From Fischerella sp. CENA71 (lineage in GTDB: Bacteria; Cyanobacteriota; Cyanobacteriia; Cyanobacteriales; Nostocaceae): a stretch of 64,000 nucleotides of DNA. The position numbers and the translations under genes were made by a program. The notes below the pieces were generated by a model, which saw nothing but the letters and a program-made list of their open reading frames with translations, was not told the DNA's origin and did no database searches. Shown here piece by piece: positions 2,845 to 29,256 of this stretch (position 1 is the first letter of the stretch; each line of letters starts with the position of its first letter). The stretch spans positions 62,001 to 126,000 of the forward strand of contig JANBVI010000030.1 in the NCBI GenBank assembly GCA_024239075.1, written 5' to 3'.

Positions 2845-4722
2845 ATGGAGAGAAGACCTAGTAGAGTCAGTAAACCAACCAGGGACTCTCGCATGAATAT
2901 CAGTCCATCAGAATCTACCGCAGAGTTAGCACAAGCTATCTGTCAAAAATTTCAAATCGATACAGATTTAGAAGATGGAAGCAATTCCAATCAAATACTG
3001 AGCGCGATCGCTCAACTAATTTGTCAATCAATTGATTTAAATACGATTCTAAATTTTACAGTAAAAGAATTACGAAGGCTATTACTAAGCGATCGCATCC
3101 TGATTTACCATCTAGATTCTGGTGATAGCGGGACTATAGTTGCTGAATCTACGATTGTTGCAGGTAGTCCACTCTTAGGAATGAAAATCACATATTCTTG
3201 CTTTAGCGAAAAACACGTAGAACGCTACAAGCGTGGTTGTATGCAGATTGTAGAAGATATTTACGCGGCTGGATTGCATCCGTATCAGATAGATTTTCTC
3301 TCCTCTTTACAAGTCAGAGCTAATCTTGTAGTACCGATTATATTTCAGCAGGATCTTTGGGGATTGTTAATAGCACAGCATTGTTGTCAACCAAGACAAT
3401 GGCTACAAACAGAAATTGATTTGCTCAAACAATTAGCAACCCAAATCAGTATTGCTATCCAACAGTCAGAACTACGTCAACAGGTGCAACACCTGCAAAC
3501 CGAAAGGAAGTTATCGCAGTCTGAGAAATTAGTACGAAATATCACCGAAAAAATACGTGATTATATAGAGATAGATCATATTTTAGAGACTGCTATTGCT
3601 GAATTAGCAGAGCTATTACAAGTCGAACATTGCCACATCGAATTATATGATACCAGTTATACTTTCGCTACTATCGCCCACGAATATAGTACTATCCCTC
3701 CCGTCTATCAAGGAATGCAACGACAGGTTGCAGATTTTCCCAAACTGTATCAACCACTATTACAAAAACAGCCGTTGCAATTTAGTGAAGTTTTAAGAGA
3801 TTGGAATCCTAATTTAGTTGTAGTGACGCAGCTAGCTTGTCCCATTTTTGACGCCGAAACCGTGATGGGAAATATTTGGCTAACAAAAGTTACTCAAGAG
3901 GCGTTTGCAGAATCGGAAATTAAACTAGTACAACAAATAGCAAATCAATGTGCGATCGCAATTCGCCAAGCTAAACTTTATCAACTAGCTCAGACACAGG
4001 TAAACCAACTCGAAAAACTGGACAATCTCAAACACGAATTTCTCAGATCCCTTTCCCACGAATTGCGAACACCAATTACCAGTATTAGCCTAGCCGTACA
4101 AACCTTAGAAACAATTATCAACCAAGAAACAGCATTAGACACGGACATGGTGTCACAACTATTGCAGATTTTACAAAACGAATGTCAGCGAGAAAGCAAA
4201 CTGATTAATGATCTGCTTTCACTCACATATTTAGAAGCAGAAGCCGAAGTTTTAACTGTGATCGTGATTGATCTCAACAGTTGGCTACCTCCCATTGTGG
4301 AATCTTTTCGAGAAGTTACTATTTGTCAGCAACAACAGTTATTTTTGCATTTCGTTGGGGAACTCCCACCTTTAGAAACAGATATCACTGACTTGGAACG
4401 TATTGTTACAGAATTACTCATTAACGCCTGTAAATATACTCCCGCGGGTGAATCGATTACCGTTTCTGCGTCAGCAACTGAGGCAACCATAGAGATTAGA
4501 GTTAGTAATTCTGGTGTGACAATTAATGCTGACGAACTTACGCGTATTTTCGACCCCTTTTACCGCCTTCCCCAACATCATCCTTCGCAATACGGTGGAA
4601 CTGGATTAGGATTAGCACTAGTGCAGAAACTGGCAAAACATTTAAAAGCTTCTATTAGGGTTGAAACTACAGCAGTTTCTACTACCTTTACTCTTGTTTT
4701 ACCAAGAGCGATCGCTGTTTAA
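2845..4722 (+). CDS. Sensor histidine kinase with two GAF domains, the first cyanobacteriochrome-like
   Basis: A 625-aa soluble kinase without membrane segments. GAF1 (about 60-205) has the phytochrome/CBCR core signature: VEDIYAAGL, then LQVRANLVVPI and LWGLLIAQHC. GAF2 spans about 245-375. The HisKA phosphoacceptor helix is at about 397-425 (SLSHELRTPITSI) and the HATPase domain at about 500-620 (LLINACKYTP, GTGLGLALVQK). In GAF1 the position where bilin-binding CBCRs have Cys-His is Tyr147-Gln148, so classical chromophore attachment is unlikely. ATG 2845 is used; a second in-frame ATG at 2893 (MNISPSES) is an equally plausible start. No partner response regulator is adjacent. Confidence 0.9.
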   Translation: MERRPSRVSKPTRDSRMNISPSESTAELAQAICQKFQIDTDLEDGSNSNQILSAIAQLICQSIDLNTILNFTVKELRRLLLSDRILIYHLDSGDSGTIVAESTIVAGSPLLGMKITYSCFSEKHVERYKRGCMQIVEDIYAAGLHPYQIDFLSSLQVRANLVVPIIFQQDLWGLLIAQHCCQPRQWLQTEIDLLKQLATQISIAIQQSELRQQVQHLQTERKLSQSEKLVRNITEKIRDYIEIDHILETAIAELAELLQVEHCHIELYDTSYTFATIAHEYSTIPPVYQGMQRQVADFPKLYQPLLQKQPLQFSEVLRDWNPNLVVVTQLACPIFDAETVMGNIWLTKVTQEAFAESEIKLVQQIANQCAIAIRQAKLYQLAQTQVNQLEKLDNLKHEFLRSLSHELRTPITSISLAVQTLETIINQETALDTDMVSQLLQILQNECQRESKLINDLLSLTYLEAEAEVLTVIVIDLNSWLPPIVESFREVTICQQQQLFLHFVGELPPLETDITDLERIVTELLINACKYTPAGESITVSASATEATIEIRVSNSGVTINADELTRIFDPFYRLPQHHPSQYGGTGLGLALVQKLAKHLKASIRVETTAVSTTFTLVLPRAIAV

Positions 4723-9743: not shown

Positions 9744-11084
9744 TTAACGAATTTTCCTACCAGTTAATACTTCTCGTACATCTAACATCGCTGTGTAGGT
9801 AGGTAAGATGTGCAAGGTTTCGTGATCTGGGGTATGTTCCAAAGCTGTGTTGATAGCTTGGCGCAAATCTTCTTCGACGATCAAATTACAATTATTTTGA
9901 GGTGCAGGATCGCTGTAGCGTAGGCGCAGAGCCATATCATAGGCGCGATCGCCACTTACTACTAAAGTTCCTCCTCTTTGGACTAGTTTTTCTGTATCTA
10001 CATCCCATATCCAGGATACATCTTCGCCATCTTGAATGCGATCGTTCAATACTAATAGTGTTGTTTGATTATTACTTTGAGTCACAACTCTAATAGTTTC
10101 ATTTGTACCTACAGGATTTTTTGATAATAAAATTCTTACTTGTTTGCCATTAATTTTTAACTCTTCCGCACGTCCAAAAGCAGGTTGAAAGCTAGGAATT
10201 GCATCACGAATAATAGCTTCATCAATTCCCAATTCCTTAGCAGCAGTAACAGCAGCTAAAGTATTGTATTTGTTGTACAAACCAATGAGAATTTGTGGCC
10301 ATTGGCTGCTATCAATACTTGGTTCGCTTCTGGTAAAACCACAACTGGGACAAGTATACTCGCCCATATGAGAAAGATAAACGCCTTTATAATCTAAAGC
10401 GTGTCCGCAACTGGGACAATAAATAGAATCAACAGCATGGGGAATCGCTTCTAAATAATGTTCTGGTTCATTTAAACCAAAGAAAGCAACTCGCTGTTGA
10501 GATAACTGTTGACCAAGATAACAAATTGTTGGATCGTCAGCATTGGCAACAATTATAGTCTCAGGTGGTAGAGTAGCGATCGCACTTCCCCAGCGTTTAC
10601 TAATTGTGTCTACTTCCCCATATCTATCCAGTTGATCACGAAATAAGTTTAAACAAAGAATCAGTTTTGGTTGAATTGGGGCTAAAACCCTGGGCAAAAT
10701 ATTTTCATCAACTTCCAAAATGGCATAATCAACGTTGAGCGAACCTACCAAATTAGTGCTTTCCATCAACGCTGTCATCAAGCCATTTTCCAGATTAGCA
10801 CCCGTAGAATTGTGAGCGACGCGATAACCTTGGCGTTCTAAAATTTCTCGCAAAAACAGCGATGTTGTGGTTTTACCATTTGTACCAGCAACCAGAATCA
10901 CGCTTTGGTTTACCTGCTGACTCAACAATTGCAATAAACGGGGTTCAATCCGACGCGCGATCGCACCGGGTAAAACAGACGCAGCACCCAAACGTAGCGA
11001 TCGCACCATCAAAGTTACGCTTTTAGCTACCGAGACAGCCAAACCCAGCCGCAGTCTATCTATAAATTGAATTTTGTTTCCCAC
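9744..11084 (-). CDS. murT: MurT-like lipid II isoglutaminyl synthase subunit (Mur ligase, DUF1727)
   Basis: 446 aa starting at GTG 11084. It has the Mur-ligase ATP loop (VAGTNGKTTTS at about 66-76), the central domain with ILEVDENILPRVL and CLNLFRDQLDRYGE, a four-cysteine zinc ribbon at about residues 224-249 (CPSCGHALDY ... YTCPSCG), and a C-terminal DUF1727 domain with the DVSWIWDVD stretch. These are hallmarks of MurT, which with the amidotransferase GatD amidates the glutamate of lipid II. No gatD lies next to it here, although the two are adjacent in many bacteria. Strict MurC-like activity is unlikely given the zinc ribbon. Confidence 0.85.
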   Translation of the reverse strand: MGNKIQFIDRLRLGLAVSVAKSVTLMVRSLRLGAASVLPGAIARRIEPRLLQLLSQQVNQSVILVAGTNGKTTTSLFLREILERQGYRVAHNSTGANLENGLMTALMESTNLVGSLNVDYAILEVDENILPRVLAPIQPKLILCLNLFRDQLDRYGEVDTISKRWGSAIATLPPETIIVANADDPTICYLGQQLSQQRVAFFGLNEPEHYLEAIPHAVDSIYCPSCGHALDYKGVYLSHMGEYTCPSCGFTRSEPSIDSSQWPQILIGLYNKYNTLAAVTAAKELGIDEAIIRDAIPSFQPAFGRAEELKINGKQVRILLSKNPVGTNETIRVVTQSNNQTTLLVLNDRIQDGEDVSWIWDVDTEKLVQRGGTLVVSGDRAYDMALRLRYSDPAPQNNCNLIVEEDLRQAINTALEHTPDHETLHILPTYTAMLDVREVLTGRKIR

Positions 11085-17488: not shown

Positions 17489-18409
17489 TCACGACCTACG
17501 AATTATTTTCTTAACCAATCGCCACAGCAAATAAAACAGTAAAATTATTATTAACAACAAGAATTTCAAAAATAAATTAAACAGCCATTTCCAAATAGCA
17601 CGGGGAGACAACTGGCGTTGCAGAATCGTCAGATTTTCTCGAATTTTTATTGTGTTGGGATGATTGACCCCTAACACCGGTTCACACATCGCCAAAGCAT
17701 CAACCAACAGAGGTTCGGCTTCACTATACCGCCTTTGGCTACGGTAGAGCAAAGCTAAATTGTTCAAGCTACCAGCCACATCCGGATGGTCGCCAACAAA
17801 CAGGCGCTTTCTCATCGCCAAAGCTTCAACATATAGAGGTTCGGCTTCAATATACCGCCCTTGGCTATCGTAGAGTCCAGCTAAATTGTTCAAGCTACTA
17901 GCCACATGGGGATGGTCGCCAACAAACAGGCGCTTGCTCATCGCCAAAGCATGAAATCTCTTGAATAAAATTTCGGTCTATATCTCGCGATCGCGTAGTC
18001 ACCAAAACTCGAAAGTGGTTATTGCTGGGTACAACTTCGCGCAGGTTATCTAAGCTAGTGACATCATCAAAGACAATTAATATAGGCAAGTCAGCTTGGG
18101 GATATTGCGACCAACACCAAGCGACTTGTTCCTTTCTGCTGCTGCTGCTAATTCCTCTGCTGCTTGCGCCACCTCCGGATCAGCTTTTGCCGCAGCTTCT
18201 ACTTCCAATACTGCCTTACCATAGTCAAGTGGTTGTTCTGGTGCTTTCTCAATTGCAGCTACAATTTGAGGAGACTGTTTTCTCAACTTCACAATAAACT
18301 GACCAGTCTTATCCCATAAAGCTTCGCCTACCTTTTCCCCCGTCTTTTCTAACGCCTTGGTGGCGACTACAGAGCCAATTGCGATCGCAGCAGTAGTTAA
18401 AGGTTCCAT
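17489..18409 (-). pseudogene. Decayed NB-ARC/TPR STAND NTPase gene
   Basis: Three fragments of one typical cyanobacterial NB-ARC-TPR protein lie in order on the minus strand in shifting frames. First, an N-terminal domain at 18409-18077 (EPLTTAAIAIGSVVATKALE ... LDYGKAVLEVEAAAKADPEV). Second, the middle of an NB-ARC domain at about 18120-17960 (WCWSQYPQADLPILIVFDDV, with Walker B; then RVLVTTRSRDIDRNFIQEI). Third, TPRs at 17947-17489 (HPHVASSLNNLAGLYDSQGR and a second copy) ending in a hydrophobic tail (FLKFLLLIIILLFYLLW). The P-loop region and most of the ARC part are missing, so at least two internal deletions with frame changes have occurred. Such STAND proteins act as signalling or antiviral sensors when intact. 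Confidence 0.85.
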
Positions 18410-18498
18410 ACGCTACTTTGCTTCTGTGCATTTTACTTAATTTATAAATACACGAGTTTGATTGTACATTAAGCAATTTCAATCAAAAATTTTGATTT

Positions 18499-18771
18499 CG
18501 TTAGGACACAAGTTGTTGTCGTTAGGACACAAGTTGTTGTCGTTAGGACACAAGTTGTTGTCGTTAGGACACTAAGTTCTGTCGTTAGGACACTAAGTTG
18601 TGTTGTTAGGACACTAAGTTGTGTTGTTAGGACACTAAGTTGTGTCGTTAGGACACAAGTTGCTGTCGTTAGGACACTAAGTTGTGTTGTTAGGACACTA
18701 AGTTGTGTCGTTAGGACACTAAGGTGTGTCGTTAGGACACTAAGTTCTGTCATTAGGACATTAAAAACACA
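18499..18771. repeat. Second tandem array of 21-bp repeats (13 units)
   Basis: Twelve good units plus a degenerate thirteenth, consensus CGTTAGGACACTAAGTTGTG plus T, with a variant CACAAGTTGTTGT in place of CACTAAGTTGTGT. The minus strand is open as heptads TQLSVLT or TTCVLTT; the plus strand has a TAG in each unit in one frame. It lies between the decayed NB-ARC gene and the 19001 gene. Period and unit number equal those of the array at 8889-9161, but the sequence differs. Confidence 0.92.
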
Positions 18772-19000
18772 CAAATCGGAAAAACCTGATGCACATTGAC
18801 TCAAAAAGTCTGAAATAACAACTCTCTCCTTACTAAGGAGAGGGGCTGGGGGTAAAGTTTTTCAGGACACTTAAGCAAAAACACTAATACTAATCCCAAA
18901 AAATTTGAGCAAAAATTCAATTTTATGCGAAATTTGCTGATGCAGAATGAAATTTGATTAAGACAAACTAGCTCTAAAAGCATTTATCAGGAGCATAGCT

Positions 19001-19384
19001 ATGTCTCGTAAAAAACGCACATCCCGTGTTCTAGAAAAATCCGAATTAAGAATTTCTGGACTCAAAGCAATTGATCCAAATATGGATTTTGGTGATGCTC
19101 GCAATTTGCAAAATATGACACAACTAATCGAGCAATACCGTACCAAGATTGATGCTTATAATACTGCTTTAGCTGTGATTGACTCTTCCAAAACAGAGAT
19201 GAAAGAATTGGAAAAAAAATTGGGTGATCTTTTAGAGAAAATGCTAATTGGTGTTGCCTTTAAGTATGGCAAAGACAGCGTAGAATATGAAATGGCTGGT
19301 GGTGTTCGTAAAAGCGATCGCATCCGCAGAAGCTCTGTCAGCCGTATAAAAGCCAGTACAGAGGAAATGTCTGTTAGTCAATAG
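19001..19384 (+). CDS. Conserved hypothetical protein, 127 aa, helical
   Basis: A soluble protein with basic ends (MSRKKRTSRVLEKSE; VRKSDRIRRSSVSRI) and a central helical, probably coiled-coil section (LIEQYRTKIDAYNTAL ... EMKELEKKLGDLLEKML). Starting ATG 19001 is preceded by the purine-rich CAGGAGCATAGCT (RBS AGGAG), supporting translation. I recognise the type as a recurrent cyanobacterial hypothetical protein but know no function. The basic tail could bind nucleic acid; that is inference only. It is preceded by the 21-bp repeat array. Confidence 0.75.
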   Translation: MSRKKRTSRVLEKSELRISGLKAIDPNMDFGDARNLQNMTQLIEQYRTKIDAYNTALAVIDSSKTEMKELEKKLGDLLEKMLIGVAFKYGKDSVEYEMAGGVRKSDRIRRSSVSRIKASTEEMSVSQ

Positions 19385-19620
19385 TCATTTGTCATTAGTC
19401 AATAGGGAACAGGCAATAGGCAATAATCGTTAGGTATTCTCCGCGTCCCCGTGTTTCCTTGTCCCCTCACACTCCCTACACTTCCCACACTCTCTTGTCC
19501 TCCTTCCCTTCCCTCATTCTCGTTCTCTATTTTCAAAAATATTTAGAAATAAGCTGATAATCTGATGTAGTTAAAACTATTTGTAATCAGTATTTTCTAT
19601 TTATAAAACTTAATCTAAAA

Positions 19621-21339
19621 GTGAAAAAAATATTAATCATATCAGCAAACCCCAAGAATACATCTAAGCTGCGCTTGGATGAAGAGGTGCGGGAAATTGA
19701 GGCGGGACTGCAACGCTCTAAAGGACGTGATCAGTTTGAAATTATCTGCAAATGGGCGGTGCGTACTGATGATTTGCGTCGTGCTTTATTAGATTATGAA
19801 CCACAAATAGTTCATTTTTCTGGACATGGGGCTGGCGCTCAAGGCTTGGCTTTGGAAAATAATGCTGGGGAAATGCAATTAGTAAGTACAGAATCTCTCG
19901 CCAGACTATTCAAATTTTTTCAAGATCAAGTCGAGTGCGTATTCTTTAACGCCTGCTACTCTGAAGCCCAAGCCCAAGCAATTCACCAACATATTAATTA
20001 TGTGATTGGTATGAACCAGAAAATAGGGGATAGGGCTGCGATTGAATTTGCGGTTGGGTTTTATGATGCTTTGGGCGCAGGTAGAACTTATGAGGAAGCA
20101 TACGAACTAGGTTGTGCTTCTATTGATCTAGAAGGAATTCCAGAGTCTTCAACCCCAATTTTAAAAAGCCCCGGTAATATTCAAGCTGAAAATTCCAGTG
20201 CGTCTAATATTTCACCAGCACAAGGACGAGGTGAATTAGAAAATGAGGGCGATCGCAATACAATTCATCTATCAAAAAACCCAGAACAGGTAACATCTAC
20301 CTCGACAACTTTAGTTTTTCCTCTTGAAGAACCAGAGGGACAAGTACCTTTAGATTCTGTTTTCTATGTCGAACGTCCGCCAATTGAAACCGACTGTTAC
20401 GAAGCAATTGTGAGAACTGGTGCTTTGATTCGTGTGAAAGCACCCAGACAAATGGGTAAAAGTTCACTGATGAGGCGAATTTTGTACCACGCTCAACAGC
20501 AAGGTTATCAGACTGTGTGCATTAATTTTCAGGATGCAGATGCTGAATTTCTGAATAGTTCGGAGAAATTTTTACAGTGGTTTTCCGCTAGCATCACCTA
20601 TGGATTGAATTTGCCAGATCAGTTATCTGATTATTGGAAAGGCATTTTAGGAAGTAAAAATAAATGTACTAATTATTTCCAACGCTACTTATTAAAAGAG
20701 ATTGACACCCCCATAGCTTTGGGTTTAGATGAAGTTGATGAAGTTTTCAAACATCCCGAAATAGCTCAAGAGTTTTTTGGGTTGCTGCGTTCTTGGCATG
20801 AAAAGGCAAAAAATGAGCCTCTCTGGCAAAAGCTGCGGCTGGTAATTGTACATTCTAAGGAAGTTTATATTCCTCTTAACATCAACCAATCACCTTTTAA
20901 TGTTGGTTTACCGATAGAACTACCAGAATTTACGCAAGCTCAAGTACAAGATTTAATCCAAAAACATGGTCTGAGTTGGAGTCATTCGGAAGTAGAACAG
21001 CTAATGTGCTTGTTTGGTGGTCATCCTTACTTAGTGCGGGTAGCATTGTATCAAATTGCGCGTCGGCGTATGACCTTAGAGAAATTACAACAAATCGCGC
21101 CCACAGAAGAAGGCCCCTACAGCGATCATCTGCGTCGCCACTTGCTGAATATACAAAATGATGCCAAATTGTTGGCAGCAATTACACAAGTGATAGCAGC
21201 AAATTCACCAGTAGACGTAGGAACAACCGAAGCATTTCAACTCCGTAGCATGGGGTTAGTCAAACTCCAAGGAAATGATGTTATGCCATTGTGTGATTTG
21301 TATCGTAAATATTTTTGCGATCGCTTAAATATTCAGTAA
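19621..21339 (+). CDS. CHAT protease domain fused to AAA-like NTPase
   Basis: 572 aa from GTG 19621. Residues 1-180 form a CHAT (caspase HetF associated with TPR) domain: His69 in IVHFSGHG and Cys112 in VFFNACYSE are the expected protease dyad. After a low-complexity linker (about 180-240), an AAA-like (AAA_35-type) domain follows with Walker [11 protein letters not shown] (Lys280) and Walker B ALGLDEVDEVF (Asp370-Glu371). The end (PYSDHLRRHLLNI ... VMPLCDLYRKYF) is the usual winged-helix-like tail of this family. The next gene, 171 nt downstream on the same strand, has a related NTPase domain. Likely a regulated protease of a conflict or signalling system; substrate unknown. Confidence 0.88.
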   Translation: MKKILIISANPKNTSKLRLDEEVREIEAGLQRSKGRDQFEIICKWAVRTDDLRRALLDYEPQIVHFSGHGAGAQGLALENNAGEMQLVSTESLARLFKFFQDQVECVFFNACYSEAQAQAIHQHINYVIGMNQKIGDRAAIEFAVGFYDALGAGRTYEEAYELGCASIDLEGIPESSTPILKSPGNIQAENSSASNISPAQGRGELENEGDRNTIHLSKNPEQVTSTSTTLVFPLEEPEGQVPLDSVFYVERPPIETDCYEAIVRTGALIRVKAPRQMGKSSLMRRILYHAQQQGYQTVCINFQDADAEFLNSSEKFLQWFSASITYGLNLPDQLSDYWKGILGSKNKCTNYFQRYLLKEIDTPIALGLDEVDEVFKHPEIAQEFFGLLRSWHEKAKNEPLWQKLRLVIVHSKEVYIPLNINQSPFNVGLPIELPEFTQAQVQDLIQKHGLSWSHSEVEQLMCLFGGHPYLVRVALYQIARRRMTLEKLQQIAPTEEGPYSDHLRRHLLNIQNDAKLLAAITQVIAANSPVDVGTTEAFQLRSMGLVKLQGNDVMPLCDLYRKYFCDRLNIQ

Positions 21340-21510
21340 CTTGTAGTCAGCACTTTCATGCTTATAGGATTTGCTAGCCTAACCCACCATTCATTTACGA
21401 GGTCAATAGTACAGGCTCCTCAATTCATTTGTGGGAGCAATCCAAAATCTAAAATCCATAGACGCAGGAAGTGCGGCTTCTCGATAGAGTAATCCAAAAT
21501 CCAAAATCGA

Positions 21511-24500
21511 ATGACCCAATATCACTATCAAGTCGGGGGTAGTCTTCCCCACGATGCCCCAACCTACGTTACCCGTCAAGCTGACAAAGACTTGTATGAA
21601 AGCTTAAAAACTGGTGATTTTTGTTACGTTCTCAACTCGCGGCAAATGGGTAAATCTAGCTTGCGGGTACAGGTGATGCAGCGTTTGCAGTCAGAAGGGG
21701 TAGCCTGTGCTGTGATTGATATTACCTCGATTGGCACAGCAGATATTACACCAGAACAGTGGTACGCTGGAGTCATTGATACTTTAATTGGTAGTTTCAA
21801 TCTTTACACCACTTTTGATTTAGACACTTGGTGGACAGAAAACAATTTAATCTCACCAGTCCAGAAGTTAAGCAAGTTTTTTGAGACGATATTACTAGAA
21901 GCAATTACTACAGATATAGTTATTTTTATCGATGAAATTGACAGTGTTCTGAGTCTGCCATTTCATACCGATGATTTTTTTGCCGTTATTCGGGATTGTT
22001 ATAATCGCCGAGCAGACAAACAAATTTATAATCGCCTGACGTTTGCAATTTTGGGCGTATCTACTCCTTCAGACTTGATTCAAGACAGACGACGCACACC
22101 GTTTAATATTGGTAAAGCAATTGATTTAACTGGATTTGAACCACAGGAAACAGAACCATTAGCGCGGGGATTCAAGGATTTTTGTGACCCGCAAGCGATG
22201 ATGTCAGCAGTGCTGTATTGGACTGGGGGACAACCGTTTTTAACTCAGAAGGTTTGTAAACTGGTATTGCAAGCAGCTAAAAATTTATCAGAACACAAAG
22301 ATCAAGAAATCGAGAAATGTAAAGAACCGCGTCCTCATGCGGCGATGTCTTCTTTATCAGCAGTACCAAATCCCTCTAATTTTGTCAGTTGCGTAGTGCG
22401 TCAGCGCATCATCGAAAACTGGGAAGCACAGGACGAACCCGAACACCTGAGAACTATCCGCGACAGAATCATGCGGAGTGGTGAACAGCGTACTGGGAGA
22501 TTGTTGGGGTTGTGTCAGCAAATTGTCCAGTCTCCCGACGGAATTTCCGCCGATGATAGTCCGGAACAAACAGAACTGCGTTTGACAGGTTTAGTAGTTA
22601 AGCGTGACGGGAAGTTACGAATTTACAATCGCATTTATGCAGAGGTGTTTCAACAGGAATGGTGTAATAAGCTACTAGCAAAATTGCGTCCCTATGCAAA
22701 TACACTGGATGCGTGGGTAGAGTCTAACCGTGAGGATGAATCGCGTTTGTTGCGGGGACAAGCTTTAACAGATGCCCAAACCTGGGCAGCAGGTAAAAGC
22801 TTGAGTGATATAGATTACCAGTTTTTAGCAGCCAGTCAGGAATTAGAACAGCGAGATGTACAGAAGCGACTGGAAGCGGAAGCAGAAGCAAAAAAGATTT
22901 TAGAAGTAGCGAATCGGAAAGCAAAGCGACAAATTCAAATTGGTTCTGTGGTGTTAGGGGTAACTTTGGTGGGGGCGGTGATCTCAGGGGTACTTGCTGG
23001 ATTAAATACTCAGAAATTGCAGCTAGCCCAAGAAGGAACACGCTTGGAAAGGTCAGGAAACACCGATATAGCCCGATTTGAATTTGACCGAGTAGGGGCT
23101 TTATCAGCAGCACTCAAAGATGGACAGGATCTAAAACTACTAGTTGAAAAAAATAACCTGCAAAAACTACAACAATATCCGGCTGCCAGTCCAGTCCTTG
23201 CTTTACAGACAATCTTAAATAAAATGTGGCAACAAAAGTTGTTACTTCAGCATCAGGGTAGTTTCTATAGTGTCAGTCTTAGTCCAAATGGGCAATATAT
23301 TGTCACAACTTCATCAGATAATACTGCCCAAGTGTGGAATTTGTCGGGTCAACTAATCACTAGCTTGCAAGGACATCAAGGCGTTGTTTGGAGAGCCAAT
23401 TTTAGCCCAGATGGAAAACGTATAGTCACAGCTTCATTTGACAAAACTGCTAAAGTGTGGGATTTATCAGGGAAACTTCTTACTACCCTTAAGGGTCATA
23501 CAGGTACTGTCTGGAGTGCTAAGTTTAGTGCGGATGGTCAACGCATCCTCACCACTGCATCAGACAAAACTGCTCGGATATGGGATTTGAAAGGAAAGCA
23601 ACTCACTATATTAAAGGGTCATACAGGTATTGTTTGTAACGCTACTTTTAGTTCAGATGGTCAAAGTATTATTACTGCTGGATCTGATCAAACTATCCGA
23701 AAATGGGACTTGCAAGGGAAACAGCAAAGCTCAGTCAGTGGTGATCAAGGACTTGTCTGTAGTGCTAATTTTAGTCCTGATGGGCAAAAAATGCTTACTA
23801 TCTTATCTCCACAAACTGTTTTAGTATCAGAATTTTCAGATATCCTCTCAGAATTGTCAGTAAAGCAAATAGCGATTCTCAGAGGACATGAAGGCACGAT
23901 CTACAATGCTAATTTTAGCCCGGATGGGCAGCACATTGTTACAACTGCATCAGATAATACTGCTAGAGTATGGGACTTAACAGGACGGGAAATTGCCATT
24001 TTACAAGGACATCAAGATAGTGTTTATAGCGGCAGTTTTAGTCCTGATGGACAAAGTATTCTTACTGCTTCGTCTGATGGGACTCTTCGGATGTGGTCGC
24101 AGCAACAATTTGTCAAAGAAAAGACTCAAGATCCCAAACCCGAACAGCAGAAAATTTCTTCTGATAGAAAACTCACTGTCAAGCTTAACAATGACAAAAC
24201 CATTTCGGTATCAGAGTTGTCAGGAAAAAAAATTGCTACTCTCAAAGGACATCTAGGCAAGGTCAATAGTGCAATTTTAAGTCCTGATGGTCAAAAGATA
24301 GTTACCGCTTCTGATGACAACACTGCTCGAATATGGGATTTGTCCGGCCAGGAAATTGCTACACTGTGGCATCAAGACAAAGTAAATAGTGCTAGTTTTA
24401 GCCCAGACGGTCAGAAGGTAGTTACTGCTTCTGATGACAACACTACCCGAATATGGGATTTGCTAGGACGGGAAATTGCTACGTTCTGGCATCAAGGCCA

Positions 24501-25362
24501 AGGTAGAGTGAACAGTGCTAGTTTTAGCTCAGATGGTCAGAAGGTAGTTACTGCTTCTGATGATGATACAAAGAAGATTTGGGAAGTCAAAAATTTAAAG
24601 CAGCTATTAGTGCAGGGCTGTGATTGGTTACACAATTATTTAGCTTATACAGCAAACTTGGGAGACAGTTATAGTATTGATGCCCCTAAAGTGGTTTCTC
24701 GTGGAGTAGTTATTCCACAAGAGGCTAGTCAAATCTGTGGTATTGCCTCAGTAACAGCACCTTCTGTATCACCAACTACTACTCCATCCTATTCAACTCC
24801 TGGGAAACCAGTAATAGTGATTGATCCCGGACACGGTGTTCCTCCAGACACAGGAACCGTTGGTTTTTTGCAAGAAGATGATTTAGTTTTAGCGATTAGC
24901 AAAAAGATAGCAGGAATTTTAGAGCGAAATGATATAGAAGTTATATTGACGCGAGATGCCGACAACATCAGTATCTCAGATGTAAATAGCGTATCGTCAA
25001 GTTTGAGGTACAGAGTGAATGTGGCAAAACAAGTTGGTGCAAGTTTGTTTATCAGTGTTCATGCTACTGCATTTAATGGACAAACACAGGGTTTAGAAAC
25101 TTATTATTCCAGCGATCGCACTAAGCATTTGGCTCAACTGGTTCACACGAACATTCTTCAAAGTATTAATGACTTGAGAAATCGAGGAGTAAAGCGAGCC
25201 AGTTTTTACGTCCTAGTGAACAATTCTAGTCCAGCAATTCTAATAGAAACAGGTTTTATTGATAATCCAGAAGATGCTGCTCAATTGAGAACCCCAGAGT
25301 ATCAAGATAAAATGGCTGAAGCGATCGCTCAAGGTATCCTCAAGTATCTAGAAAAAAAGTAA
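21511..25362 (+). CDS. AAA-like NTPase - membrane segment - WD40 repeats - N-acetylmuramoyl-L-alanine amidase fusion
   Basis: 1283 aa. Residues 1-395: AAA-like domain with Walker [10 protein letters not shown] (44-51) and Walker [13 protein letters not shown] (about 136-147), then its tail ([11 protein letters not shown]). A helix rich in Glu/Ala/Lys precedes one membrane segment at about 474-495 ([19 protein letters not shown]). Residues about 580-1030 contain ten or so WD40 repeats (SPDGQ ... TARVWDL pattern; one lacks the W-D end). Residues 1098-1283 are an Amidase_3 domain: VIDPGHG, a Glu in [19 protein letters not shown] and [14 protein letters not shown] supply the zinc ligands and catalytic Glu. 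AAA-WD40 proteins are common in filamentous cyanobacteria; the amidase end is not. With one membrane pass the NTPase would face the cytoplasm and the amidase the periplasm. Confidence 0.9.
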
Positions 25363-25603
25363 CCATTTCTCAACAGCTTTGCAAAAATGCGATCACCTAT
25401 CTTTTAGCTGATGGTAAGACTACATTCCAAAAAAAAGGCTAATTTTTTTAAGCCGATGCATTAATAATGTAAGCCAATACATTGGCATTGTAGGGAGTTG
25501 CGTTTAGATTGCACGGCGATGCAAACACTAAACAGCACAAAAGTAGGTGAAGCGTATTATTGGTTGCGATCGCATAACTAGGTATCACAAAGCCTAGATC
25601 CCC

Positions 25604-25710: not shown

Positions 25711-25911
25711 ATGAAAGCAGAAGAATATCCTTTTGTTCAAGAATTAATCACAGATGCAAAAGGTCAAGTTATGAAAGTTGTCTTAGACCTTGAAAAATAT
25801 CAGCAATTGTTAGAAGCTCTTGAAGACGAAGGACTTTACCGAGCTATGCAACTAGCCCAAGGTGAAACATCTCTCAGTCTCCAAGATGCACTGAAAGAAC
25901 TTGAGCAATAA
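25711..25911 (+). CDS. RelB/Phd-like antitoxin, 66 aa
   Basis: Small acidic protein ([20 protein letters not shown] ... [17 protein letters not shown]) with the usual antitoxin pattern: a short N-terminal strand-containing segment and a C-terminal helix that would wrap the toxin. Its TAA stop overlaps the ATG of the toxin gene by one base (TAATG), indicating coupled translation. The family is typical of cyanobacterial RelBE pairs in which the DNA-binding part is short. Confidence 0.78.
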
Positions 25912-26312
25912 TGAATACCGAGTACAAACCAAGTTTTATTAAAGACCTAAAAGCGCTTAAAAGTACTCCTGTGTACGACTCTATAAAATCTCTGGTCTTT
26001 GAGGAAATTCCCAGCTATTCCAATTTGGACGAAATTAGCAATTTGAAAAAGCTCAAGGATGCTGATAATACCTATCGTGTTCGAGTAGGGGACTACCGTA
26101 TTGGTTTTACCTTTGAAGAAGAGACAATAACTTTTGTTCGTGTTCTCCATCGTAAGGATATTTACCGCTACTTTACCATAATTGAAAAAGCGATCGCTCC
26201 ACTTGCGTCAGTTTTTGAAATCGCTATCAATCAAAACCAGGCGAAGATGTCAACAAACTCTTCAACGCCAACAAACCAGCACCATAAGCAGGTTCAAATC
26301 TTGGCCAAATAA
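25911..26312 (+). CDS. RelE/ParE-family toxin with C-terminal read-through extension
   Basis: The first about 88 residues form a RelE-type mRNA interferase: [11 protein letters not shown] at the N-terminus, [17 protein letters not shown], then [16 protein letters not shown] and [14 protein letters not shown] with the conserved basic residues near the C-terminus. RelE proteins of this type normally end just after RYF(P). Here translation continues for about 45 more residues of uncharacteristic sequence, running 86 bp into the convergent BadF-type gene. The stop codon appears to have been lost by mutation or deletion; whether the longer product is still toxic is unknown. Confidence 0.8.
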
Positions 26313-28872: not shown

Positions 28873-29256
28873 TTAGAGGATAATGCGTTTGATGCCATCT
28901 TTGAGGAGGTTAACGTTGAAGTTGATTAAAAGGGCGAGAGGATACTTGGTCATTTTCAGATAGGAAAGGACTTGGGCTTCGTGAATTGGAGTGAAGTTTT
29001 GGACGGCTTTCAATTCCACAATCAGAGAATTTCCAACCAAAAAATCTAATTTACCTCCACCCACTGGACGCCCTTTATAAGTAACTACTACTGGATACTC
29101 AAACATATGAGGTATACTCCGCATCACAAATTCTTCTTTTAACGCCTTATGATAAACCTCCTCCAAAAATCCAGGTCCCAACACCCGATGTACCTCAATC
29201 GCTGCACCAATCACAGCATAAGCTAGTTGCTCTACCTCATCTTTTGATAATCTCAT
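28873..29256 (-). CDS. GxxExxY family protein
   Basis: 127 aa. It has the name-giving motif in GPGFLEEVYHKALKEEF and the PD-(D/E)XK-like core GKLDFLVGNSLIVELKAV with conserved Asp, Glu and Lys, followed by EAQVLSYLKMT and LLINFNVNLLKDGIKR, which match this widespread small family well. The fold is nuclease-like, but no activity is established. These genes often travel inside accessory regions. The start ATG 29256 agrees with the family N-terminus. Confidence 0.9.
   Translation of the reverse strand: MRLSKDEVEQLAYAVIGAAIEVHRVLGPGFLEEVYHKALKEEFVMRSIPHMFEYPVVVTYKGRPVGGGKLDFLVGNSLIVELKAVQNFTPIHEAQVLSYLKMTKYPLALLINFNVNLLKDGIKRIIL

Follow-up and report, generated by a model that had tools for sequence, protein, structure and literature searches.

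A paired AAA_35 membrane protein of Fischerella with a putative wall amidase in a probable outer half that differs between relatives

What might a cyanobacterium do with a protein that joins an NTPase, a membrane segment, a WD40 region and a peptidoglycan amidase in one chain? Such a protein is encoded by a gene, here termed gene B (Table 1), within a 64,000-nucleotide stretch of Fischerella sp. CENA71 (contig JANBVI010000030.1, positions 62,001 to 126,000; hereafter the window). An initial annotation made from the sequence had described an AAA-like NTPase, one membrane segment, about ten WD40 repeats and a full Amidase_3 domain in a single protein, and Pfam and motif searches agree with this description. 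The reading frame runs through 1283 codons without interruption. Its AAA_35 domain (Pfam PF14516) scores 108.1 bits against a cut-off of 27 and contains both Walker motifs; Walker B was found near residue 140 as predicted, and Walker A is present, at residues 42-49 rather than 44-51. The lone membrane segment was likewise recovered with different limits (480-498, earlier given as 474-495). The WD40 match covers nine stretches (Pfam, E 1e-85), and the ten motif matches start at residues 590 to 1005. The C-terminal domain displays the Amidase_3 fold, two His and one Glu as zinc ligands and the catalytic Glu. All four residues (H1108, E1122, H1184 and E1246) are kept in the alignment, so the loss of zinc ligands that had been raised as an objection did not materialize, and the window amidase is probably catalytically active. 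In the model of the amidase domain two loops have a pLDDT below 50, one of them (model residues 17-25) near the active site; a single-sequence model of residues 532-1283 reached a pLDDT of 52 and was not relied on.

Table 1. Features of the gene A and gene B locus, in window positions
Feature	Position	Strand	Basis
Small ORF, 127 aa, upstream of gene A; also upstream of the L063 pair	19001..19384	+	sub-threshold HBM match only
Gene A, CHAT - AAA_35, 572 aa, 171 bp upstream of gene B	19621..21339	+	Pfam, PADLOC
Gene B, AAA_35 - TM - WD40 - Amidase_3, 1283 aa	21511..25362	+	single unbroken frame and Pfam
AAA_35 domain of gene B, residues 10-259	21538..22287	+	Pfam, E 5e-31
Walker A of gene B, residues 42-49	21634-21657	+	motif
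Walker B of gene B, residues 137-144	21919-21942	+	motif
Sole TM segment of gene B, residues 480-498	22948..23004	+	hydropathy scan
WD40 region of gene B, residues ~580-1047, 10 motif matches	23248..24651	+	Pfam and motif
Amidase_3 domain of gene B, residues 1102-1277	24814..25341	+	Pfam, E 1e-46
Zinc ligand H1108 (DPGHG)	24832..24834	+	alignment/motif
Zinc ligand E1122	24874..24876	+	alignment/motif
Zinc ligand H1184 (SVHAT)	25060..25062	+	alignment/motif
Catalytic E1246 (IETGF)	25246..25248	+	alignment/motif
Exchanged cassette, 2450 bp	22999..25448	+	flanks match G002/G003 in blocks, inside does not
Stretch common with G074 in blocks, 87-91% DNA identity (L063 4354-11364)	18317..25394	+	DNA comparison

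A sequencing or assembly error joining two genes, another objection raised at the outset, was excluded by an ortholog in a genome of another genus (G074), which has the same domain order and an equal length of 1283 aa. A third genome holds a relative of 1442 aa on plasmid pNsp_e of Nostoc sp. ATCC 53789 (G123; WP_114085518.1), recorded just as 'N-acetylmuramoyl-L-alanine amidase'. Gene B has the P-loop NTPase and C-terminal repeats expected of a STAND/NLR-like switch, but the effector is located on a partner gene. In PADLOC-DB 2.0.0 gene B matches HEAT-ARM_XIII only, via its repeats.

The annotated architecture is thus real, but the annotation had overlooked this partner gene, as well as a cassette swap described below. 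Gene A encodes a CHAT domain at the N-terminus joined to a canonical AAA_35 domain (Pfam, E 4e-147), and the PADLOC 'chat' model matches it with an E-value of 2e-23. The pairing of A and B is kept in G074 (locus L063) and in two congeneric genomes, G002 (L103) and G003 (L104). Of these two genes, B encodes the membrane subunit. A survey covered 91 AAA_35 'B' ORFs at 89 loci, masked and cut ORFs being retained; selection was purposive, highest identity first and then unusual lengths, and hence its fractions are not population frequencies. For 36 of the 91 ORFs a second AAA_35 protein is encoded at most 1.5 kb upstream on the same strand, with a CHAT domain on 18 of these 36; other partners carry N-terminal trypsin-TIR, HTH-TIR, patatin or Ser/Thr kinase domains. 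At least three WD40 motif matches follow the AAA_35 domain in 62 of the 91. Tails seen in individual cases are CHASE2 (L075, L141 and L181), periplasmic binding protein (L166 and L169), CHAT, GUN4 and TPR, and one B protein without a TM segment ends in a histidine kinase with receiver. An amidase match was absent from 87 of the 91 ORFs, a few of which are incomplete at a contig or locus end or contain masked stretches; the four B proteins bearing an amidase all have an upstream AAA_35 partner. Neither a MoxR ATPase nor a vWA domain was found in the 13 Pfam-scanned ORFs of the 22 around the pair, gene B being judged by the best 25 of 42 families. At L105, L106, L107, L113, L115 and L118 a third gene of 208-210 aa stands between the CHAT-AAA_35 and AAA_35-TM genes, and the only copy scanned (L107) gave a sub-threshold match to an HsdR N-terminal nuclease domain. 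Downstream of the window pair lie a ParE-type toxin ORF (25911-26312, +), which overlaps the next gene on the opposite strand, and an ORF of the PDDEXK_3 nuclease family (28873-29256, -).

A single pass with the NTPase inside and the WD40 region and amidase outside had been proposed from the start, and several lines of inference point the same way. Exactly one hydrophobic segment, starting at residues 400-560, is present in 74 of the 83 B proteins that reach 500 aa and contain few masked letters. In these 74, Lys and Arg are more numerous in the 20 residues before the segment than in the 20 after it in 54 cases, tied in 16 and fewer in 4. One TM segment precedes the amidase in all eight amidase fusions, and the same charge rule gives an N-inside orientation for seven of them, L064 opposing it (4 before, 5 after). 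CHASE2 and periplasmic-binding-protein domains are extracytoplasmic in their namesake families, and the B relatives with such tails therefore argue for the same topology. The WD40-amidase half is probably on the periplasmic side.

It is this outer half that differs between close relatives. The first 470 residues of gene B share 95% identity with the two congeneric orthologs, and nucleotides 1-1488 of the gene (codons 1-496, ending within the TM segment) are 93-94% identical to G002 and G003. Beyond codon 496 no DNA of these two genomes matches until position 25449, which lies 87 bp downstream of the stop codon. There the 3' flank begins to match again, in blocks of 90.6-95.7% and one 340-bp block of 72-74%, and the match reaches the valyl-tRNA synthetase gene; apart from this block, the blocks flanking the cassette overall share 88-96%. 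With matching flanks and an unmatched inside, 2450 bp differ at the same place within one genus, and there G002 and G003 carry an unrelated WD40 half without amidase. Rapid drift in place of a swap was ruled out by a control comparison: G002 and G003 remain 92-93% identical to each other in their matching stretches, before as well as after the breakpoint (part of the G003 copy is masked), and the WD40-only half consequently does not simply drift fast. Against the other four genomes of the genus the cassette DNA gave short weak matches only, the best being 222 bp at 69%. In G004, gene A is found at 91% with similar upstream DNA; the downstream DNA is different and gene B does not adjoin.

G074 has the amidase form within unrelated surroundings, which match Fischerella thermalis PCC 7521 (L035) at 88-93%; at the corresponding site the latter strain retains short module remnants only, including the last 54 codons. 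Between the window and G074, dS is 0.19 for the cassette, 0.37 for codons 1-496 and 0.36 for gene A, and the two AmiC amidase domains of the window genome give 0.64 and 0.31. The lower value of the cassette suggests its more recent transfer. The outer halves of the switch thus seem to be exchanged between relatives, a behaviour to be expected if the device serves self-destruction or defence. A dispersed repeat occupies about 70 bp of the intergenic region as far as the start of gene B (21446-21515), with dozens of copies among the matches listed in five genus genomes at about 76-97% identity; folded as RNA it showed no special fold (z 0.62). Tandem repeats with a 21-bp unit occur upstream of the operon (18498-18764), and visual inspection showed others at the 3' border of the alternative cassettes (L103 ~3500-3600, L104 ~10150-10250). 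These short tandem repeats may mark recombination sites.

Gene B is not a uniquely odd protein; that view was ruled out by a search in 218 genomes of the family, in which the clade of fused amidases was found in at least eight (G000, which is the window genome, G074, G123, G023, G142, G121, G108 and G078). Best matches were taken by E-value, and clade members weaker than the AmiC matches would escape. Among these eight, the domain order of the window protein, AAA_35-TM-WD40-amidase, recurs in L063 and L064, and L065 has an EAD8-AAA_35-TM-amidase variant. The fusions at L066-L069 have the architecture caspase-TM-amidase. In a tree of 57 amidase domains, from which a span filter left out 4 of 13 distant amidase loci, the eight fused amidases form one clade beside AmiC, not inside it (support 99/96). 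The tree of 90 B-type AAA_35 domains was built by a quick method with SH-aLRT support only, has L065 on a long branch and leaves out one of the 91 survey ORFs (a 248-aa piece in L123); on it the amidase label requires three changes, each forced by supported branches. One amidase clade and three label changes indicate a single amidase lineage on several switches, namely three AAA_35 lineages and the caspases. The zinc ligands are kept in all eight members and the catalytic Glu in six. It is lost in L065 (E to N) and L066 (E to D), both among the five members without WD40, and catalysis is hence not always required.

Beyond the family, a single-sequence query of an order sample of 388 genomes gave five matches at E<=1e-46, all within the same family, and in a phylum sample of 386 genomes searched with the clade HMM the window protein alone scored above the AmiC level (345 versus at most 198 bits); both samples overlap the family search, so rare cases outside the family may be missed. 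A phage origin of the amidase was considered and rejected: 45 phage records match, and the 15 of the 45 that were listed do so at about 36-38% identity. A stand-alone Amidase_3 protein of 246 aa, a distant relative, is encoded about 2 kb from the G074 fusion gene (L063:13441-14181, -). The caspase-TM-amidase genes of L066-L068 adjoin a chemotaxis-type operon, as judged by eye. L068 has a Pepco-domain gene nearby, and L067 and L068 contain a further divergent caspase-type gene, the L067 one with an FGE-sulfatase domain.

The halves of the protein also evolve at different rates. Between the window and G074, dN/dS is 0.09 for codons 1-496, 0.12 for gene A, 0.37 for the WD40 region and 0.53 for the fused amidase (bootstrap 0.34-0.88), compared with 0.02 (0.01-0.05) and 0.15 (0.08-0.28) for the amidase domains of the two housekeeping AmiC proteins in this genome pair. 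The caspase fusions show the same contrast: 0.10 for the caspase, and for the amidase 0.38 between L067 and L066 and 0.83 with a wide interval (0.40-2.21) between L067 and L068. Fast outer and slow inner evolution would agree with recognition or conflict acting on the outer half. Relaxed constraint is a possible reading as well, given the upper limit of 0.88 and the 3 of 300 replicates that reach 1. Residues 1201-1240 (25111-25230) are only 69% identical to G074 in DNA (dS 0.94, dN 0.30), and the next 40 codons 97%; gene conversion or a diversified surface are possible reasons.

The sequences show the anatomy, an intact active site, operon pairing, a swap whose breakpoint falls at the TM boundary, an amidase lineage spread over several switch types, and its fast evolution. 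As close to an even prospect, we tentatively favour a membrane-spanning switch, gated by NTP, that would act in conflict or cell death. Its outer module would be exchangeable, and in this strain a putative wall amidase would act there as executioner beside the CHAT protease. Subunit A, the CHAT protease domain with its AAA_35, would be cytosolic. Subunit B would hold its own diverged AAA_35 inside, cross the membrane once and expose an exchangeable cassette, in this Fischerella strain one or more WD40 propellers and an AmiC-like zinc amidase facing the periplasm. An envelope or infection signal would cause the two AAA_35 proteins to assemble with NTP; assembly would release the CHAT protease inside and unmask the amidase for, or bring it near, the peptidoglycan outside. 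The wall would then be cut locally, and one cell of the filament would die or become isolated, as in a device of the conflict or abortive-infection type. A broader picture is quite possible, if held with more reserve: a transmembrane system resembling paired immune receptors, in which a conserved cytosolic NTPase pair with CHAT is combined with outer halves recombined at the TM boundary, one circulating cassette bearing the amidase lineage that is also found on caspases, so that a single death programme would act on both sides of the membrane.

Were the executioner reading correct, filamentous cyanobacteria could destroy themselves by enzymatic, NTPase-driven opening of the wall from outside the membrane, in addition to cytosolic proteolysis, NAD loss or membrane damage. 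Extracytoplasmic sensor or effector halves might also be diversified by recombination at the TM boundary. The same locus and chassis with and without amidase form a natural allele pair, so that swapping cassettes would directly test what the outer module does, and the caspase-TM-amidase relatives offer an independent test.

Several observations count against an executioner. The slot of the amidase holds sensor-type domains (WD40, CHASE2, periplasmic binding protein) in several relatives, which would suit an inward-signalling receptor; two clade members have lost the catalytic Glu, the positive-inside rule fails in L064, and PADLOC matches B by repeats only. Because many relatives place such domains in the C-terminal slot, the amidase could serve as a sensor and not as the cutting output, and this is the strongest rival, though on balance we consider it less likely: the amidase fold would bind, and perhaps trim, outer peptidoglycan or muropeptides and signal inward through the AAA_35 of B to the CHAT domain of A, by analogy with animal PGRP receptors, which use a different amidase fold. 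The contrast between fast outer and slow inner parts agrees with a receptor, as does the fact that CHAT, TIR, patatin and caspase, all known as death-type effectors, are at the cytosolic end; the complete active site in the window protein and six of the eight members speaks against it, and so does the WD40 region that remains beside the amidase.

Alternatively, the amidase might be a passenger, captured by recombination and decaying under weak constraint while doing little. Its high dN/dS, the divergent stretch at 1201-1240 and the remnants in F. thermalis PCC 7521 would be expected of such a domain, but the frame is open with ligands and catalytic Glu retained in two genera, dN/dS is below 1 in 297 of 300 bootstraps, and the clade persists in at least eight genomes, always with its zinc ligands; we regard this as improbable. 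Still less probable is septal or developmental wall remodelling, in which the protein would be a third, regulated AmiC with a part in nanopores, heterocysts or the breakage of filaments. Its amidase has the fold of the nearest characterized relatives, AmiC1 and AmiC2, which make septal nanopores according to the relevant part of PMC5591844. However, two AmiC-type amidases are already encoded in tandem in this genome, and the fused clade stands apart from AmiC, is sparse and fast-evolving, has an allele without amidase within the same genus and is plasmid-borne in one case, which is not the pattern of developmental housekeeping. Of the three roles offered by the initial annotation (cell death, septal remodelling and antiphage defence), remodelling is thus the least supported.

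How does the locus compare with known systems? The amidase shares the Amidase_3 fold, zinc ligands and catalytic Glu with AmiC1/AmiC2 of Nostoc/Anabaena (PDB 5emi) and is 45-47% identical to the two AmiC copies of its own genome. Unlike AmiC, it belongs to another clade, is tethered to an NTPase-TM-WD40 chassis and has a several-fold higher dN/dS. Cyanobacterial AAA_35-TM-WD40 proteins resemble gene B in the N-terminal half, TM segment and WD40 region, yet end without an amidase. A description of an AAA_35-Amidase_3 or caspase-Amidase_3 fusion was not found in the open-licence papers searched, and the concern that this architecture might already be widely described was not borne out there. The term 'amidase' is absent from the portions of PMC8195603, PMC2853523 and PMC10907252 covered by a term check, and a survey of orthocaspases in 132 cyanobacterial strains names 35 accessory domains, amidase not among them in the portion of the article at hand (PMC8283722). 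A 2012 metacaspase survey that also discusses cell death (PMC3501461, in part) reports four sequences, from Proteobacteria and Bacteroidetes, in which a metacaspase is fused to Amidase_2. These likewise combine a death-type protease with a peptidoglycan amidase; theirs is another amidase family, and paired AAA_35 genes are not mentioned in that part of the article.

Also comparable are the NTP-dependent conflict systems of multicellular bacteria (MoxR-vWA ternary systems, iSTAND), in which, according to PMC7159879 (2020), an NTPase switch is combined with variable modules and effectors include trypsin, TIR and caspase domains. In some of these systems a TM segment is combined with peptidoglycan-associating domains, and EAD1 is linked there to wall hydrolases of lysozyme-like and papain-like type (PMC7159879). 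The terms 'AAA_35' and 'amidase' are absent from the main text of that article. Unlike the MoxR-vWA ternary systems, the present locus has two AAA_35 proteins, MoxR and vWA being absent from the 13 scanned ORFs. Like them and the iSTAND systems, the gene A and gene B pair has the build of an NTPase switch with variable modules and effector types of the same kind.
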